From: Aliikangiella sp. G2MR2-5
GTDB lineage: Bacteria; Pseudomonadota; Gammaproteobacteria; Enterobacterales; Kangiellaceae
Direction of reading: 5' to 3'
DNA: 64,000 nucleotides
NCBI RefSeq assembly: GCF_015687155.1
Contig: NZ_JADPQF010000002.1
Location: 186,001 to 250,000 of the forward strand
Below the pieces are notes generated by a model. That model worked only from the letters and a program-made list of their open reading frames with translations, did not search any database and was not told the DNA's origin. Numbering within the stretch: the stretch's first letter is position 1; each line of letters starts with the position of its first letter. The position numbers were made by a program, and so were the translations under genes. Positions 53,956 through 61,144 of this stretch are shown here, one piece after another.

Positions 53956-55185
53956 CTAACTCCTGGCTAACTCTAAAACAGTATCCAATAGCAGGTTACA
54001 CCCGCACTCAACATCGTCCCAATGTGACCACTCATCCGGAGCATGACTAATACCACCGACACTCGGAATAAAAATCAGGCCTGTGGGAGCGATATCTGCA
54101 AAAAACTGACAATCATGCCCTGCCCCGCTGGGCATCAGCATATAGTCTAAATTTTTGTTTTTGGCTATCGACTCTATCTCTGTATAAACCTCACTGGAAA
54201 AGTGCCTCGGTTCGAGCCAGCTCATCTGTTCGTACTCGAACATCAGATGGTGTTTCCGAGCTATAGCAGATAACACTTTACGGCAAGCATTCGCCAAATT
54301 CTCCATTGTACCGGGATCCAGATCTCGTCCCACCAGCGTAAAGTCAGCTTCTCCCGGTATTGTGTGAGCATATCCAGGCTTAAGTTCCACACTGCCAATT
54401 GTCAGGCGCGACAGCTCGCTTCCTTCTTCATCAATAATTCGAGAAATTTCATGAGCGAAATCTGCTACTCCCATAAATGCATCGCTACGCATATTCATGG
54501 GTGCCGTACCTGCATGATCGGCTTTTCCGATAAGCTTGACTAGCCACTTATAGACTCCTGAAATTCCGGTAACTATTCCAATTTGCTTGTTCTCGGCCTC
54601 TAATACTGGTCCCTGTTCGATGTGCAATTCCAGAAAAGCTTTAATTGATTTAGGGTCGCGCCTTGCATGCATCGCTTCATAAGGCTCTAGACCTGCTTTT
54701 TTAAGCGCATCAACCAACCTTTCTCCATTAGGATCTTTAGCTGACTCTAACCATTCAATGGTAAGCTGGCCTGTCAATGCTTGTGCTCCCAACATGCCGC
54801 CAAAACGTCCTTCCTCCTCGCTAGTGCCAATAACTTCTATTGGATGTTCAAGTTCAATATTATTTTCTTTTAATACCCTGACAATCTCCAGGCCAGCAAT
54901 AACGCCAAGAGTTCCATCAAAAATTCCACCAGCAGGTACCGAGTCTATATGAGATCCAATAATGACTGCCGGCTTGGATGAGTTACCAAACCGTCCACAC
55001 ACATTTCCTACACCATCAATATGAGACTCCATTCCAACTTGATTAAACTTTTCCAATAACCAGCGACGAGCTTCCATATCAACATCAGTTAAACCTTGTC
55101 GATATACGCCTTTGTCTGCTTCATTAAAACCAAACTTGGAAAGTTGGAATAAATCAGACTCCACTCGCTTGATATCGATTTTCAA
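53956..55185 (-). CDS. M20-family N-carbamoyl-amino-acid / allantoate-type amidohydrolase
   Basis: A 409-residue two-domain zinc hydrolase: metal ligands in GSHIDSVPAGGIFDGTLGV, EEEGRFGG and LELHIEQGPVLE, the dimerisation lid KADHAGTAPMNMRSDAF, and a final metal His in GGISHAPDEWS. The family cleaves N-carbamoyl amino acids or allantoate, releasing CO2 and ammonia. It begins with TTG 55185 behind AGGAGA and is the last gene of a cluster with a transcarbamylase and an AsnB homolog. Removal of a carbamoyl group from the cluster product is the natural inference. Confidence 0.9.
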   Translation of the reverse strand: MKIDIKRVESDLFQLSKFGFNEADKGVYRQGLTDVDMEARRWLLEKFNQVGMESHIDGVGNVCGRFGNSSKPAVIIGSHIDSVPAGGIFDGTLGVIAGLEIVRVLKENNIELEHPIEVIGTSEEEGRFGGMLGAQALTGQLTIEWLESAKDPNGERLVDALKKAGLEPYEAMHARRDPKSIKAFLELHIEQGPVLEAENKQIGIVTGISGVYKWLVKLIGKADHAGTAPMNMRSDAFMGVADFAHEISRIIDEEGSELSRLTIGSVELKPGYAHTIPGEADFTLVGRDLDPGTMENLANACRKVLSAIARKHHLMFEYEQMSWLEPRHFSSEVYTEIESIAKNKNLDYMLMPSGAGHDCQFFADIAPTGLIFIPSVGGISHAPDEWSHWDDVECGCNLLLDTVLELARS

Positions 55186-55215
55186 TGATTTCTCCTCTGA
55201 ATTTTTAGCACTTGA

Positions 55216-57228
55216 CTAAGCATGCCAACCAAACTGTTTTGCTTTTTTCGCGGCCAGCTTCGGAATATCTTGCTCTATAAAATGATGATGCATTAACTGA
55301 ACGCCGATAACATGGTTGATCACAGCGTCAAGTTGAACTTTTACATCTCGCTGCATAGCAGGATCGTCGTGACTGGTTAACATATTTTGAATCGCCTGAA
55401 AATCCAATAACCCTGCAGCCTTTACTTTTTCTTCATTGGCAAATTCATTAATTAGCGTCATCATAGATTGCCACTTTTTCTGATCAGTATGTGCAGGAGG
55501 GGCCATAAAGGCAAATTTCTGACGTTTATACAGTGACTCAGGGAGTAATCCTTTCATTGCTTCCCTTAGAACATATTTTTCAGTTGCACCTTTTATGCGC
55601 ATCTGCGGTGGAACCTGAGTAGCAAATTTTGCAAGATGATGATCCAGAAAAGCAGGACGAGCTTCCATTGAATTTGCCATGTCAACTCTGTCGCCTCCCC
55701 AGGTAAGGATCTGACCTTCAAGCATCGTTTTTATCCACACATACTGTGCTTTATCCAATGGATGACGTCCATCCAGTTGACTCTCATCAAATGTATTAGC
55801 TATTGCCGCGCCTGCATCGTAATTCACTAACTCCTCTCTCCATTGAGGATTAATAAGCTGCATCGCAGACTCATGGCAATGTAACCAGTTTTGCAGACAC
55901 GTTGGAGTAAAGCCAACGACATTATTCATAGCTTGTGAAGAATAAGCTTCCCGAGGAAGCATCGCGCCTTTAAACAAGGCATTGTTTGCTTGTAAGCTTG
56001 CCTGATATTCGCTTTTCAAACTTGCCGGTAAATCCTCCAGACCGTATAAAAACATATCTTGGCGGAAGGCGGGATAGCCAGCAAAAAGTTCATCCGAACC
56101 TTCCCCGGTAAGTACAACTTTATAGTGGTTCTCGCGAACTTTTTCGCTCATTAATAATTTTGCAACGGCCAGAGTGTTGTAAATTGTTCGCTCTGTATGC
56201 CATATCGTTCTTTCGAAATTTTGATAGAGTTGCTCAGCAGAAAGAGAAAGTACAACTTGATCGGCTCCGGTTTTATCGGCCATTTCTCGGGCGATAGGAG
56301 TCTCATCATAATCATTACTATCAAACCCAATAGTAAAAGCCTTTACCGGGTCCTGCCTGACGGCTGCAGACAATCCCAGGATTGAGCAAGAATCAATTCC
56401 TCCCGATAAGTAACAACCAACCGGAACATCCGCTTGTAAACGATGGTCAACAGCTTCAAGTAAACTTTCTCTTAAACCGTCGATATAGTAGTTTTCATCC
56501 TTATGATTAACATATTCACCGGCGACAGGAAAATCAATATCCCAGTATTTTTGTTCATGAACTGTTAAACGTCCATTCTTTCTTTGAATTTTGATTAAGT
56601 GTCCTGGAGGAACCTGATGTATATCTTTAAATGCTGTACTTCCGGGTACCATGACCTGGATAAGTTGATGATAGGTTCCTTCTGCGCTCATCTCTCTCTT
56701 AACTTTTGGATGGGCAAACAAAACTTTTAACTCGGAACCAAAAACAATCCCCTCATCCATTTGAGTCCAATAGAGAGGCTTTATACCAAAACGATCTCGA
56801 ACTAAATACAAACAGTCTTCGTCCTTATCAAAGAGTGCAAAAGCGAACTCTCCTCTTAACTGTTCAATCGTTTTTTCAATACCGTAGCGGGGATAAAGAT
56901 GTAAAATGATTTCAGAATCACTTTTGGTGTTAAATTCAGCTCCCTGGCTAGTAAGACTAGCTCTAATCTTTTGAAAATCATAAAACTCGCCATTGTGAAC
57001 AAGAAAGTATTTATTGTTTTCACTACAATGCGGCTGCCTTCCTCGCTCTTTATTCAAATCGTTAATTGAAAGTCGGGCGTGACTCATACCCAGGCCAAGT
57101 CCTTCTGGATTGACGTAACCGAAATCATCCGGACCTCGGTGATGTTGAATCGCAGCCATATTGACCAATAGTTGCGAATCTATTGGTTGATTGTTTGCTT
57201 GGTGAAAAACACCAGCAATTCCACACAT
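55216..57228 (-). CDS. AsnB-type glutamine-dependent amidotransferase
   Basis: A 670-residue protein with a class II glutaminase domain (Cys2 in MCGIAGVF, RGPDDFG, VHNGEFYDF, SDSEIILHLY, GEFAFALFD) and an ATP-pyrophosphatase synthetase domain (PP-loop SGGIDS about 272-277, LTGEGSDELFAGYPAFR, GDRVDMANSMEARPAFLDH). Such enzymes adenylate a carboxylate and convert it to an amide. Besides asparagine, relatives amidate N-acetylglutaminylglutamine and other solutes. Placement between a transcarbamylase and a carbamoyl hydrolase suggests the substrate is a carbamoylated amino acid. AsnB for asparagine is the simple alternative. Confidence 0.9.
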   Translation of the reverse strand: MCGIAGVFHQANNQPIDSQLLVNMAAIQHHRGPDDFGYVNPEGLGLGMSHARLSINDLNKERGRQPHCSENNKYFLVHNGEFYDFQKIRASLTSQGAEFNTKSDSEIILHLYPRYGIEKTIEQLRGEFAFALFDKDEDCLYLVRDRFGIKPLYWTQMDEGIVFGSELKVLFAHPKVKREMSAEGTYHQLIQVMVPGSTAFKDIHQVPPGHLIKIQRKNGRLTVHEQKYWDIDFPVAGEYVNHKDENYYIDGLRESLLEAVDHRLQADVPVGCYLSGGIDSCSILGLSAAVRQDPVKAFTIGFDSNDYDETPIAREMADKTGADQVVLSLSAEQLYQNFERTIWHTERTIYNTLAVAKLLMSEKVRENHYKVVLTGEGSDELFAGYPAFRQDMFLYGLEDLPASLKSEYQASLQANNALFKGAMLPREAYSSQAMNNVVGFTPTCLQNWLHCHESAMQLINPQWREELVNYDAGAAIANTFDESQLDGRHPLDKAQYVWIKTMLEGQILTWGGDRVDMANSMEARPAFLDHHLAKFATQVPPQMRIKGATEKYVLREAMKGLLPESLYKRQKFAFMAPPAHTDQKKWQSMMTLINEFANEEKVKAAGLLDFQAIQNMLTSHDDPAMQRDVKVQLDAVINHVIGVQLMHHHFIEQDIPKLAAKKAKQFGWHA

Positions 57229-57323
57229 AATCTACTCCAATAAAATATGTTTCTTAGATACAACAGACTCAGCCAAAGACTAAATCGTTTATAAAAAATT
57301 CCTACAAGTAAACCGCGCAGACT

Positions 57324-58403
57324 CTAGATAACATCCATCACTCTTTCCATTCGCTGACACATACAGGTCAACAATGCCATTCTCAAAAAAACCGCGCCTC
57401 GCGCCTGAGCGAAATACCAATTATGGGATGTTTCATCCAGTTCCGTTGCTAACTCTTCTCCTCGGGCTAAAGGATGCAAGATAATTGCATCTTCTTTAAT
57501 CGGTGAATTAGCATCGAGAATAAAGCTCTCTCCAAATGATTGATAATCATTTCCAACCCATGCAATTGCGTTAATATAGATCACATCCAGTTCAGGAAGA
57601 GAACTATTAAACTGAGTAGAAACTCGAACGTTCAATCCTCTATCCTCTAATTGCTCTAACTGATGTTCATCAAATATTGAATCACTGCTGCCATCATGAA
57701 TAATGACAACTTCTTCGAATATTTCAGGAAAAAAACTAAATAGTTTTAGCAAGCTTCGAACGGTTCTCATTTTGTTTGGTACACCTACGATACCAACCCT
57801 GATCCTGTCACTCTCATCCAGTTCACTTTTTAAAAGCTCAGGTTTCCATTTGAAAATTGTGTAGAGATCAGCTAATGCCTGTGTTGGATGCTCGTCAATT
57901 CCATTTCCCGCGTTGATAATTGGAATCCGCAAGCTACCCATCATTTCCTGAACAGATGACTCGCTTGAATCTCTTAAAACTACACAGTCGCCATAATTGT
58001 TAAACATTTCAGCAACATCAGCGAGAGATTCTCCTTTAGCAATTCCTGTCGTTGCCCGGTCGGTGATCGACATAATATCTCCGCCCAAACGATGCCAGGC
58101 ACTTTCAAAAGAAAGTCGAGTTCTGGTGCTGGGCTCATAAAAAGCACTGATTAAAATTTTTCCCTTTAAAGGTGTCGAATACCTTTCTGGATTACTCTCG
58201 TATTTCGCCGCCAATCGAAATAACTGCAACAGGGTATTTTTTTCAAATTGATCACTGGAGACTATGTGCTGCGACTCAAGTAGCTTAAGATAGTCTCCTT
58301 CTTCCTGAATATTCTTTAATAAAGCTTTGGGATGTGCATCACCGTATACGTCGAGGCTTTCTCTAGAGAATGAAACCTCTTCTTTTAGTTGCGAATCTAC
58401 CAT
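57324..58403 (-). CDS. ATCase-like transcarbamylase with altered amino-acid site
   Basis: About 359 residues from ATG 58403 (AAGGA six bases upstream). Carbamoyl-phosphate motifs are intact: FYEPSTRTRLSFES (about 88), KGESLADV (80s-loop type), HPTQALADLYT (about 173), HPLARGEELATELDE (about 314) and WYFAQARGAVFLRMALL as in PyrB. The aspartate loop YMTRVQ of E. coli PyrB reads YINAIAW here, so Arg229 and Gln231 are missing and aspartate is an unlikely acceptor. A 50-residue N-terminal extension is also unusual. No regulatory pyrI is nearby. It probably carbamoylates another amino acid, perhaps glutamine. Confidence 0.85.
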   Translation of the reverse strand: MVDSQLKEEVSFSRESLDVYGDAHPKALLKNIQEEGDYLKLLESQHIVSSDQFEKNTLLQLFRLAAKYESNPERYSTPLKGKILISAFYEPSTRTRLSFESAWHRLGGDIMSITDRATTGIAKGESLADVAEMFNNYGDCVVLRDSSESSVQEMMGSLRIPIINAGNGIDEHPTQALADLYTIFKWKPELLKSELDESDRIRVGIVGVPNKMRTVRSLLKLFSFFPEIFEEVVIIHDGSSDSIFDEHQLEQLEDRGLNVRVSTQFNSSLPELDVIYINAIAWVGNDYQSFGESFILDANSPIKEDAIILHPLARGEELATELDETSHNWYFAQARGAVFLRMALLTCMCQRMERVMDVI

Positions 58404-58516
58404 AACTGATCCTTTTTCCAATCTATAAATACCAGTAACAAAAGTACAAATGGCGACACCAGGGTCACCCCCAAAGCTGCATAAACCAGCAACTCAAATG
58501 AGCTGAACTCAATCAT
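58397..58516 (-). CDS. 39-residue single-helix membrane peptide
   Basis: A short frame begins at ATG 58516, overlapping the last codons of the symporter gene by 8 bases. It ends in TAG at 58397, overlapping the transcarbamylase ATG. The product is MIEFSSFELLVYAALG, then a hydrophobic helix (VSPFVLLLLVFI), and a charged end DWKKDQLW. Tight interlocking on both sides argues for real, coupled translation. It may be a small subunit of the symporter; such partners are known for other SSS carriers. Confidence 0.6.
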   Translation of the reverse strand: MIEFSSFELLVYAALGVTLVSPFVLLLLVFIDWKKDQLW

Positions 58517-59942
58517 TATTTTTCACCTCTTCGGCGCTTAGTAGCTGCCAGTCAAAGTTCTCATTCCTTAATGCAATACCTGATAGGCAAATCACTAAGG
58601 ATACTAAACATGACAGCAATGCAGCGACATAAAAACCAATTTTAAAATAGCCGACCAGGCCAATAGCTGATGCAATCGCCATTGCAAGAGCAGCAGTAAT
58701 CCCCCCAAGACGACGGTAGTAAAGTCCAAATACGATTGGCCAGATGGTACTTGCCACAAAAGCACCGGTGAAATTTAACAACGCACCAAGCGTTGCAACT
58801 TTTGGTAAACATAAAAGCCAGGTAAATCCACCAAGCCCCACAATCATATATTTGCTCGTTTTGAGAAGTTGCTTTTTAGTGGCATCTTTCCTGAATAAGC
58901 CTTTATATATATCTTTAGTTAGCAGGTCACTTGTAGCAGCCAACAAAGAATCAAGACTTGATGCTAATGCCGAAAAAACCACAACAAAAACGAAAATCGC
59001 ACCGATATCACCAAGCAACCTTGCGGCAATCATAGGACCAATCATATCAGCGCTTGGAGGATAAATATTAAGCGCCATTGCAGAAAGTGCAACGAATCCG
59101 GTGACAATAGGAATTGGCAACCATAACAATCCAGATAGGAGAAAAGCACGCTGCCCCAAATTTTGTTTAAAGGCAAAAGCCCGAGACCACCACACGTTCG
59201 AGTGAAATATTTCGCCGATGCCAAAAAATATATTATTGAATAAAAACATGATCGCAGCGGGAAAGAGCAGATTTAATAGTTCAGGACTTTCTCGGCTTAC
59301 AGCAGTATGAATATTTTCCAAACCCACATCACGTACACAAATGTAGCCAATTAGTAAAACACCAAAAAGAATAATAATTGTTTGAATAAAATCAGTAGCA
59401 ATAACTGCTCTGAGTCCACCAAGCAGGGTATATAAAACACAGATAATAAGAATGGCGCTCATTCCAATGTGATAGTCAATTCCACTCAGTGCAGATAACA
59501 AAATCCCGCCTGCCATGCCAAGGCTAACTAACCAGCCAAGTGCGTAAAAAAGAGAAACTATCAAAAATACAAACCAGGCCACTTTGCCATATCGCAAGCG
59601 TATAAAATCACCGCAAGTATAGCCTTGAGGCATGAGTAACTTTATTCGTTTGGCCAAAGGCGCAAATAAAATCAATCCCAGCGCCGCCATCGAATAGCCA
59701 ACCATTCCCCATATTCCAAACTGATAAGTTAGTTGAGGAGCAACTAAAGTCGTATTGGATGTTATCCAGGTCGCCATCGCTGTGGCCGACGCAAAAGCAA
59801 ACCCCACGTTCCTTCCTGCGAGCATGAAATCGTCCAGGGACTCATTCTTTTTGCCTAACCACCAACCGAAGCCAACCCAAAAGATTCCGAAAACGCCTAA
59901 TATCAAGAATGCCCAGTGACTGGGAATAGTAACTAGTTCCAT
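58509..59942 (-). CDS. Sodium:solute symporter (SSS family)
   Basis: A 477-residue protein with about thirteen transmembrane helices and the SSS/LeuT-fold features: DDFMLAGRNVGFAFASATAMATWI near the N-terminus, the YTLLGGLRAVIATDFIQTIIIL signature, and FVFVVVFSALASSLDSLLAATSDLL carrying the second sodium-site serines. The early ATWITSNTTLVAPQLTYQFG segment is reminiscent of the urea/DUR3 side of the family. It probably imports or retrieves the small ureido/amide compound handled by the neighbouring enzymes. Confidence 0.92.
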   Translation of the reverse strand: MELVTIPSHWAFLILGVFGIFWVGFGWWLGKKNESLDDFMLAGRNVGFAFASATAMATWITSNTTLVAPQLTYQFGIWGMVGYSMAALGLILFAPLAKRIKLLMPQGYTCGDFIRLRYGKVAWFVFLIVSLFYALGWLVSLGMAGGILLSALSGIDYHIGMSAILIICVLYTLLGGLRAVIATDFIQTIIILFGVLLIGYICVRDVGLENIHTAVSRESPELLNLLFPAAIMFLFNNIFFGIGEIFHSNVWWSRAFAFKQNLGQRAFLLSGLLWLPIPIVTGFVALSAMALNIYPPSADMIGPMIAARLLGDIGAIFVFVVVFSALASSLDSLLAATSDLLTKDIYKGLFRKDATKKQLLKTSKYMIVGLGGFTWLLCLPKVATLGALLNFTGAFVASTIWPIVFGLYYRRLGGITAALAMAIASAIGLVGYFKIGFYVAALLSCLVSLVICLSGIALRNENFDWQLLSAEEVKNND

Positions 59943-59955
59943 AGGGGGTTACCGT

Positions 59956-60414
59956 CTACTCAGGTTGCTTTTCGCCCGCCTTGTAAACGCGAGCTAGTTG
60001 TGGAAAGAAAATTAGGACAATCAGAAAAATAAACAGGCCCGCACCAAGTGCAAACAGTTTGAAAGCCATCGACAATTCGCGATGATGAACGGTAATAGTC
60101 ACAGGATTGCTTTGTGAAGCTCCGCCAGAATCAACAATTCGAGCAAAAAACACCCCATCAGAATAACCACTTAGCGCTATTTCACCAGCCAAATTAAGCG
60201 GATAAGTCTTTACTAACCGGTTAAACTCGGGAGTATCAGCAACTTGAAGCAGCCACTTATCATTTGAGATCTTTTTATTCCATCTCAAACTATAATACCC
60301 TTCTTTAACCAGTTGAGATTCCGGGCTCAACTTAAGCCCTTCGGCATCAACGAATGGCGAAACCAAAGTTAAAATCATTAAAAGCAGCAATTTTTCAACG
60401 TATGAAAAGCTCAT
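59956..60414 (-). CDS. Periplasmic domain protein with C-terminal membrane anchor
   Basis: About 152 residues from ATG 60414; the frame opens at 60444. It has a signal peptide (EKLLLLMILTLVSPFVDA), a single Ig/fibronectin-type beta domain (EGYYSLRWNKK, WLLQVADTPEFNRLV, DGVFFARIVDSGG, NPVTITVHH) and a C-terminal transmembrane helix (FKLFALGAGLFIFLIVLIFF). No named family is recognised. It is 13 bp ahead of the symporter gene and probably co-expressed; a solute-capturing or complex-assembly role is speculative. Confidence 0.7.
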   Translation of the reverse strand: MSFSYVEKLLLLMILTLVSPFVDAEGLKLSPESQLVKEGYYSLRWNKKISNDKWLLQVADTPEFNRLVKTYPLNLAGEIALSGYSDGVFFARIVDSGGASQSNPVTITVHHRELSMAFKLFALGAGLFIFLIVLIFFPQLARVYKAGEKQPE

Positions 60415-60607
60415 GACAGACACAAATGCTGTAAATGGTCGCACTAATACTACAACAATTATACTTTGTACTCAAATCATCTTAATATTAAAATTAGTAA
60501 ATAAAAGCGAATATTAGGCTAACACAAAGCATTCGTTTGCATTTGCACAGGCATAGCGAAAGCAGATCGATCGAATCAACCTATTAAATATAGCTTTAGT
60601 GACAGAA

Positions 60608-61144
60608 CTAGTGTTCTTCTGGTGATTTTGCCACAATTGGGCCAATTTCAAGCAAGGGGGCAGCGTCCAGATCGGCAGCATCCATCATTGTGGCAACACG
60701 ACTGAAGCTCGACAAAAGTAAATTTTGCTCCCAATCTTCGAGTGCTTGAAAACGCTCAATGAAGTGATCCTGAAGTGGTTTAGGTGATTTTTCGAGCAGC
60801 GACTCGCCCTTACCAGTTAGATGTATTGAAACCTTGCGCCTGTCAAACTCGCTACGCGTCCGCTCTATTGTCTGACGAGACTCCAGCCTGTCCAAAATAG
60901 TCGTAATAGTTCCCTGGCTTAGGTTAACTTTGGTCGCTATGTCTTTGGCAGAGACCCCCTTATTTGACTGAATTTCCTGCAGGACCAATAACTGGGGGCC
61001 CGTTAGTCCTGAGTCCTTATTGAGCTTTTTAGAGTGTAGATCGATTGAACGAATAATTTTTCGGAGTGATACTAAAAGCTCTTCGTATTTTTGCATAGGC
61101 TGACTATATTCTTTCACTTTCTTCGATTTACTCTGGTCCCCCAA
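60608..61144 (-). CDS. MarR-family regulator, EctR-like
   Basis: About 178 residues from TTG 61144 (ATG 61096 is an alternative). Winged helix: SLRKIIRSIDLHSKKLNKDSGLTGPQLLVLQEI, VSAKDIATKVNLSQGTITTILDRLE, SEFDRRKVSIHLTGKGESLL. The FVERF-like FIERF segment and ending MDAADLDAAPLLEIGPI are typical, as I recall, of the MarR subgroup that includes EctR, the regulator of ectoine synthesis. It heads the cluster, so salt-responsive control of the downstream genes is a reasonable inference. Confidence 0.85.
   Translation of the reverse strand: MGDQSKSKKVKEYSQPMQKYEELLVSLRKIIRSIDLHSKKLNKDSGLTGPQLLVLQEIQSNKGVSAKDIATKVNLSQGTITTILDRLESRQTIERTRSEFDRRKVSIHLTGKGESLLEKSPKPLQDHFIERFQALEDWEQNLLLSSFSRVATMMDAADLDAAPLLEIGPIVAKSPEEH

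Follow-up and report, generated by a model that had tools for sequence, protein, structure and literature searches.

Gene content of the locus

Positions 53956-61144 of the window (the whole 64,000-nt stretch of Aliikangiella sp. G2MR2-5 that was analysed) carry seven open reading frames (ORFs), all on the minus strand, that together form a candidate cluster for an N-carbamoyl amino-acid amide, possibly carbamoyl-glutamine amide (CGA; N-alpha-carbamoyl-L-glutamine 1-amide). An original prediction had described this seven-gene run and interpreted it in the same way, and all seven ORFs were recovered at their places (Table 1). Families were assigned to the seven proteins by Pfam and NCBIfam model scans (E 0.01), using curated bit cut-offs; the MarR, solute:sodium symporter (SSS), aspartate carbamoyltransferase (ATCase)-like, AsnB-like and M20 families that had been predicted are each backed by Pfam or NCBIfam. 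The likely start of the transcarbamylase is the ATG at 58403, which corrects the ORF opening at 58421 and overlaps the stop codon of the 39-aa peptide gene. The peptide gene also overlaps the symporter gene, and these overlaps suggest that the three genes are translationally coupled.

Table 1. Genes of the candidate N-carbamoyl amino-acid amide cluster (window coordinates)
Feature	Position	Strand	Basis and remarks
M20-family N-carbamoyl-amino-acid hydrolase, 409 aa	53956..55185	-	NCBIfam NF006771; structure match 3n5f
AsnB-type glutamine-dependent amidotransferase, 670 aa	55216..57228	-	Pfam GATase_6/7, Asn_synthase; TIGR01536
ATCase-fold transcarbamylase, ~359 aa	57324..58403 (ORF opens at 58421)	-	Pfam OTCace_N, OTCace
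Hydrophobic 39-aa peptide, probably single-span membrane	58397..58516	-	Similar ORF at equivalent place in relatives
SSS family transporter, 477 aa	58509..59942	-	Pfam SSF
Anchored periplasmic protein, 162 aa	59956..60444	-	Model: Ig/FN3-like beta-sandwich and two helices; start codon uncertain
MarR-family regulator	60608..61144	-	Pfam MarR; start codon uncertain

Conservation was assessed across 369 genomes that sample the class evenly and include the window's own, and in a scan of named genomes. From the latter only the best 80 loci were kept, so that counts out of 80 are biased towards close relatives, with several species per genus. These named loci span at most 17 kb; the 20 pyrB control loci are shorter at about 11 kb (about 5 kb on each side, some cut by contig ends). 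Synteny was called at BLAST scores above 45 bits. Loci cut by contig ends are counted in the 80 and left out of the 64 full-flank loci, and some genomes figure among both the class loci and the named loci (e.g. L047 and L071 are one genome).

A transcarbamylase with a changed acceptor site

The transcarbamylase passes the Pfam models OTCace_N and OTCace, and its structure model (pLDDT 81.8) matches solved ATCases. It misses the curated ATCase model TIGR00670 (197.6 bits versus a cut-off of 236.95). Residues are given in E. coli ATCase numbering. Those that presumably hold carbamoyl phosphate are kept throughout: S52-T55, K84, R105 and H134 in 80/80 relatives and Q137 in 79/80. The residues aligned to R167, which we take to be the ligand of the alpha-carboxylate, and to P266 and L267 are likewise kept in all 80. 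R229 and Q231, presumably the ligands of the aspartate side chain, are never found: the first position holds A (63), S (12), T (4) or K (1), the second A (64), S (14), V (1) or L (1). As this pair is lost, the enzyme probably accepts an amino acid whose side chain is neutral. The residues aligned to N284, I286 and W288 of the window protein are invariant in 80/80 relatives. In the 20 pyrB control genes, raw pairwise alignments, some of them visibly misaligned, show R at position 229 in 18 and Q at position 231 in 15.

In a quick tree, 28 cluster rows and four degenerate paralogues were separated from 22 pyrB rows by a branch with a support of 100; the 28 cluster rows alone had a support of 44, and the program issued long-branch warnings. 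Kangiella and Idiomarina split from the other cluster branches. The nearest named row to the window protein is that of Kangiella aquimarina (76% identity), and genome G382 is closer (84%). The window transcarbamylase thus resembles PyrB in its fold and its carbamoyl-phosphate residues and differs from it in the R229/Q231 positions, in falling below the TIGR00670 cut-off and in standing apart from the pyrB rows. The host genome (5.0 Mb, 36 contigs) contains three OTCase-family genes, namely an ArgF-type gene on contig C1, a PyrB-type gene at C12:38757 and the window gene. With these two genes elsewhere and the Arg229/Gln231 pair lacking, the window gene is not the sole ATCase candidate.

A sister group of transcarbamylase-like proteins (L027, L028, L029, L030; also L035-L040) is 34-41% identical and has altered active-site motifs. 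The stretches examined around them, some of which are cut by contig ends, gave no match to any other cluster gene, and these proteins are possibly no longer transcarbamylases. A single genome, G247, has both the cluster-type and the sister-group form. In G437, of the genus Ectothiorhodospira, the transcarbamylase match (C1:1194650-1195402) spans residues 102-352 only, and the gene may be incomplete.

A distinct AsnB-type amidotransferase

The AsnB-type protein has the MCGI start and the SGGIDS motif, and it passes TIGR01536 (asparagine synthase; 444 versus 267.1 bits). With asparagine synthase B and the XrtA-type amidotransferases it shares the glutaminase plus synthetase architecture. It differs from the XrtA type in missing TIGR03108 (405.5 versus 816.9 bits) and in sequence, as the cluster-type orthologues are 58-81% identical to it and other long matches at most 39%. 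The model of the N-acetylglutaminylglutamine amide (NAGGN) amidotransferase, TIGR03104, is missed by a wide margin (295.6 versus 570.1 bits), and NAGGN synthesis was rejected as a function on this ground. Two other substantial AsnB-type genes are present in the host genome, one at C12:370206 (643 aa, 35% identical) and one on C23 (576 aa), so that the cluster homologue need not be the one that makes asparagine.

Linkage and distribution of the gene pair

The transcarbamylase family (≥ 57% identity) occurs in 23/369 class genomes, and cluster-type AsnB (≥ 58%, E ≤ 1e-100) was found in exactly these 23. Among 61 relatives, the transcarbamylase (≥ 70%) was found in 19 and the cluster AsnB (≥ 69%) in 18; the one mismatch is G393, where the transcarbamylase lies less than 650 bases from a contig end and AsnB was not found. 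Within the window's family, 19 of the 37 genomes searched have the transcarbamylase, and the cluster is a patchy, optional trait there.

The best 80 loci come from Ectothiorhodospira, Thiorhodospira, Thioalkalivibrio (including T. versutus AL 2, L092), Thiohalobacter, Kangiella, Idiomarina, Aliidiomarina and Pseudidiomarina, as well as from various bins of gammaproteobacteria and a few of spirochaetes. Of these loci, 78 contain the AsnB-type gene, 73 of them within 500 bases of the transcarbamylase ORF. One of the two loci without it, L075, ends soon after the transcarbamylase; in the other, Thiorhodospira sibirica (L070), the gene lies elsewhere in the genome (61% identity), outside the 17-kb locus. 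As to spacing, L071 and L072 exceed 500 bases solely through overlapping long ORFs, and in L105, L106 and L121 the M20 and amidase genes sit between the two. No match to the AsnB-type protein was found in the 20 ordinary pyrB control loci, one of which (L182) has a symporter-family match. The linked AsnB-type gene in 78/80 loci against 0/20 pyrB loci indicates that the arrangement is not due to chance, and the predicted conservation of the genes together was borne out both by genome content and by position.

Gene content across the 64 full-flank loci is graded: the AsnB-type gene is present in 63, the symporter in 54, M20 in 43 and the amidase in 37. Three cluster loci lie in bins labelled Leptospiraceae or Spirochaetia (L105, L106, L111), with a rearranged gene order in L105 and L106; they suggest either transfer between phyla or misbinned contigs.

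The cluster in a known CGA producer

Literature statements here and below refer to the portions of the cited papers that were covered. CGA has been reported from Ectothiorhodospira marismortui (PMC1224877; PMC3857566), and CGA and related solutes have been found in other purple sulfur bacteria too (PMC7824335). DSM 4180 is the Ect. marismortui type strain (genome accession FOUO00000000; PMC8877833). On contig NZ_FOUO01000006.1 of this strain, filed as E. mobilis DSM 4180 (L071), MarR, M20, amidase, transcarbamylase and AsnB genes stand in a row, so the proposed check for linkage in a halophile known to hold CGA gave a positive result. The strain used by Galinski and Oren in 1991 was reportedly the type strain. 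Across the order of Ectothiorhodospira, the transcarbamylase is present in 41/47 genomes and in 38/38 near-complete ones. Genome G322, with gene positions equal to those of DSM 4180, has three OTCase-family genes. No gene assignment for CGA was found in the open-access papers searched, subscription papers lying mostly outside this coverage; the original prediction likewise named no gene set for the compound.

Proposed breakdown enzymes

The M20 protein passes NF006771, a broad model also named allantoate amidohydrolase (515.8 versus 399 bits), and its best solved relative is the N-carbamoyl-L-amino acid hydrolase 3n5f (E 1.3e-71). It scores below the AllC model TIGR03176 (272.1 versus 597.75 bits). 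It shares the M20 family with 3n5f and ErtE and differs from the latter in falling below its cut-off (376.5 versus 520).

In many relatives, M20 is followed by a gene for an isochorismatase-superfamily cysteine hydrolase (amidase). This enzyme belongs to the same superfamily as biuret hydrolase, RutB and N-carbamoylsarcosine amidohydrolase; it is nearest to the first two and differs from BiuH and the other named families in lying far below their cut-offs (87.3 versus 370 for BiuH). In the 64 full-flank loci, the amidase never occurs without M20, and M20 occurs without the amidase in six. In the five longer Kangiella loci, the M20 gene is transcribed divergently and the amidase is absent. Judged by family chemistry, an amidase and an N-carbamoylase would be the set needed to break down an N-carbamoyl amino-acid amide.

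Proposed uptake genes

The symporter passes Pfam SSF (E 2.1e-28) and misses TIGR00813 (137 versus 184). It was not seen in 10/64 full-flank loci (eight Ectothiorhodospira, L070 and L098) and appears to be an optional module. A small ORF lies between symporter and transcarbamylase in 68/69 symporter-bearing loci, spirochaete bins included; this count includes three counted from a later Met, and L118 gave none. The peptide has 39-40 aa in most loci (L073-L144) and ends in L, I or V, then W.

Neither the 39-aa peptide nor the periplasmic protein of the window has an NCBIfam or Pfam match at E 0.01. The anchored periplasmic protein of the original prediction is consistent with its structure model (pLDDT 85.8), in which an N-terminal helix is followed by a predicted Ig/FN3-like beta-sandwich and a C-terminal membrane helix; Foldseek returned weak matches to Ig-like and FN3-like domains and nothing stronger. 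The protein went undetected in 10/10 full-flank loci without a symporter and in 3/54 with one, and we propose it as a partner of the symporter. The cluster seems to consist of three separable parts: synthesis, which is nearly always present, and optional uptake and breakdown parts.

Regulator and osmolyte genes nearby

The regulator passes Pfam MarR (E 5.2e-15). A MarR-type gene of one of two subtypes is present somewhere in 45/80 loci, in some of them several kb away. No EctR-named family was among the Pfam/NCBIfam matches of the window proteins, and no EctR sequence was compared. EctC (PF06339) is matched in 2/23 cluster genomes and in none of the other 21, window genome included, so the carriers are mostly not ectoine makers. 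Ectoine regulation was rejected on this count, which covers the cluster genomes alone.

Osmolyte-related genes lie within the flanks of some loci: sucrose synthase in 9/80 (among them DSM 4180 and seven other Ectothiorhodospira loci), a fructokinase-like gene in 15/80, the betaine-route glycine/sarcosine and sarcosine/dimethylglycine methyltransferases in 3/80 and an MscS-type channel in 2/80. The 24 class loci, partly from the same genomes, gave 2, 2, 1 and 3, respectively, and each of the four was found in 0/20 of the shorter pyrB control loci; the queries were proteins of the cluster loci themselves, a choice that tilts the comparison towards the cluster. Each of the eight Ectothiorhodospira loci (L065-L069, L071, L072, L096) has a sucrose synthase gene next to the cluster, and seven of them also have a fructokinase-like gene within the flanks. 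The betaine-forming methyltransferase genes are directly downstream of the AsnB-type gene in L104 (11050-12727) and L060 (5476-7124), and in L104 the first of them overlaps the AsnB-type gene by four bases.

Proposed function and alternatives

We consider it likely that the cluster makes CGA, or an N-carbamoyl amino-acid amide much like it, by carbamoylation followed by amidation, with optional uptake and recycling modules. In the first step, the transcarbamylase would move the carbamoyl group from carbamoyl phosphate onto the alpha-amino group of glutamine, whose neutral side chain fits the loss of the Arg229/Gln231 pair. The kept R167 would place carbamoylation before amidation. In the second step, the AsnB-type enzyme would activate the 1-carboxylate with ATP and amidate it with ammonia from glutamine. 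For recycling, the isochorismatase-type hydrolase of many relatives would take off the 1-amide and M20 the carbamoyl group. The SSS symporter, the small membrane peptide and the Ig-like periplasmic protein would form a separable uptake module.

The closest known design is that of the NAGGN operon. It consists of asnO, ngg and a peptidase gene with the MarR regulator PA3458, which represses it (PMC8070244). Like the cluster, it combines an AsnB-type amidotransferase, an N-acylating enzyme, a hydrolase and a MarR regulator, and its product is a glutamine-based amide osmolyte, as is proposed here (PMC8070244). The difference lies in the N-acylating enzyme, which in the cluster is a transcarbamylase and not a GNAT, so that carbamoylation would replace acetylation and peptide formation; none of the seven window proteins scanned is a GNAT/Ngg protein. 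The MarR protein of the cluster would probably repress the operon at low osmolarity, as PA3458 does for the NAGGN operon.

As far as sequence allows, the interpretation as an N-carbamoyl amide cluster is supported. Several points weigh against CGA synthesis and recycling. We infer CGA as the product from genes and not from chemistry, as we do the acceptor, the direction of transport and the regulation. TIGR01536 would label the AsnB-type protein an asparagine synthase, and in one of the 80 relatives the R229 position is occupied by Lys. Concerning breakdown, the window M20 gene is at the opposite end of the cluster from that of most relatives, and its product is 43-50% identical to the M20 of most class relatives and about 70-73% to that of Kangiella; it may be a separate recruit. 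The M20 carbamoylase of the originally proposed recycling set stands (NF006771). That set lacked the amidase that many relatives have; in the window genome, a protein search without an internal positive control found no such enzyme. Idiomarinaceae loci, in which symporter, transcarbamylase and AsnB are present, have no M20 or amidase within 8 kb. In most loci, none of the osmolyte neighbours searched for is present (e.g. 65/80 are without a fructokinase match). CGA is described as a minor solute known from one organism so far, with Galinski and Oren 1991 cited (PMC3857566), and the cluster is far more widespread than its documented occurrence. Papers on Thioalkalivibrio speak of glycine betaine (PMC9062515, PMC8092127), and the word 'carbamoyl' is absent from the covered portions of the main texts of both. 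The increase of glnA and nitrogen genes under high salt (PMC9062515) is consistent with CGA synthesis but unspecific.

Of the alternatives, the one that survives best is that the product, at least outside Ectothiorhodospira, is the N-carbamoyl amide of a different neutral amino acid, e.g. asparagine, alanine or a beta/gamma amino acid; it has the same chemistry with another solute, and we hold it to be unlikely. Side-chain specificity is not readable from sequence, and both the variation at the two changed positions and the Kangiella/Idiomarina split allow different substrates. However, CGA is the only such compound met in the papers covered and comes from the species whose type strain holds the cluster, and the invariance of N284, I286 and W288 suggests one substrate.

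A role in the catabolism of ureides, pyrimidines or hydantoin-type compounds, with the symporter importing, the hydrolases degrading and the transcarbamylase running backwards, is very improbable. Allantoate and ureidoglycolate hydrolases are among the M20 relatives, and the amidase resembles biuret hydrolase and RutB. The genes kept in 63/64 full-flank loci, however, are those of the transcarbamylase and the presumably ATP-dependent amidotransferase, and this pair occurs without either hydrolase in Idiomarinaceae and without the symporter in Ectothiorhodospira.

We give hardly any credence to an amidotransferase that makes an amidated peptide such as glutathione amide, with unrelated neighbours. 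AsnB-type enzymes do amidate carboxylates, and glutathione amide is thought to be present in most Chromatiaceae and Ectothiorhodospiraceae (PMC8877833). Yet the glutathione reductase used as its proxy was not found in DSM 237 and DSM 4180 in the portion of that study covered (PMC8877833), and both strains have the cluster; glutathione amide synthesis was rejected on these data. The transcarbamylase, which glutathione amide does not need, moreover accompanies the amidotransferase in 23/23 class genomes.

Duplicate pyrimidine and asparagine enzymes lying side by side with no common product are just as implausible: the family names alone, the TIGR01536 match included, speak for them, and the R229/Q231 changes in 80/80 relatives, the tree position apart from the pyrB rows and the identical distribution of the two genes speak against them, so that plain ATCase plus asparagine synthase was rejected, also on the TIGR00670 score and the pyrB controls.

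With CGA as the favoured product, we lean, somewhat less firmly, towards a wider claim. The cluster would be the first gene set for CGA, and glutamine N-alpha-carbamoyltransferase would be a new activity of the ATCase fold. CGA production, in many cases with uptake and turnover, would extend across Ectothiorhodospiraceae (Thioalkalivibrio included), Kangiellaceae, Idiomarinaceae, other sulfur-oxidising gammaproteobacteria and some spirochaetes.

Implications

If this is true, a compatible solute, known in structure since 1991, would have its genes, and CGA physiology would be open to deletion and heterologous expression. The transcarbamylases would gain a new substrate class, and a gene pair that is likely annotated as aspartate carbamoyltransferase beside asparagine synthase would be explained. 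The proposal would further suggest that a solute reported from a purple sulfur bacterium is frequent among marine and soda-lake gammaproteobacteria, which would have a transporter and a breakdown route dedicated to it, so that CGA might circulate as dissolved organic nitrogen.

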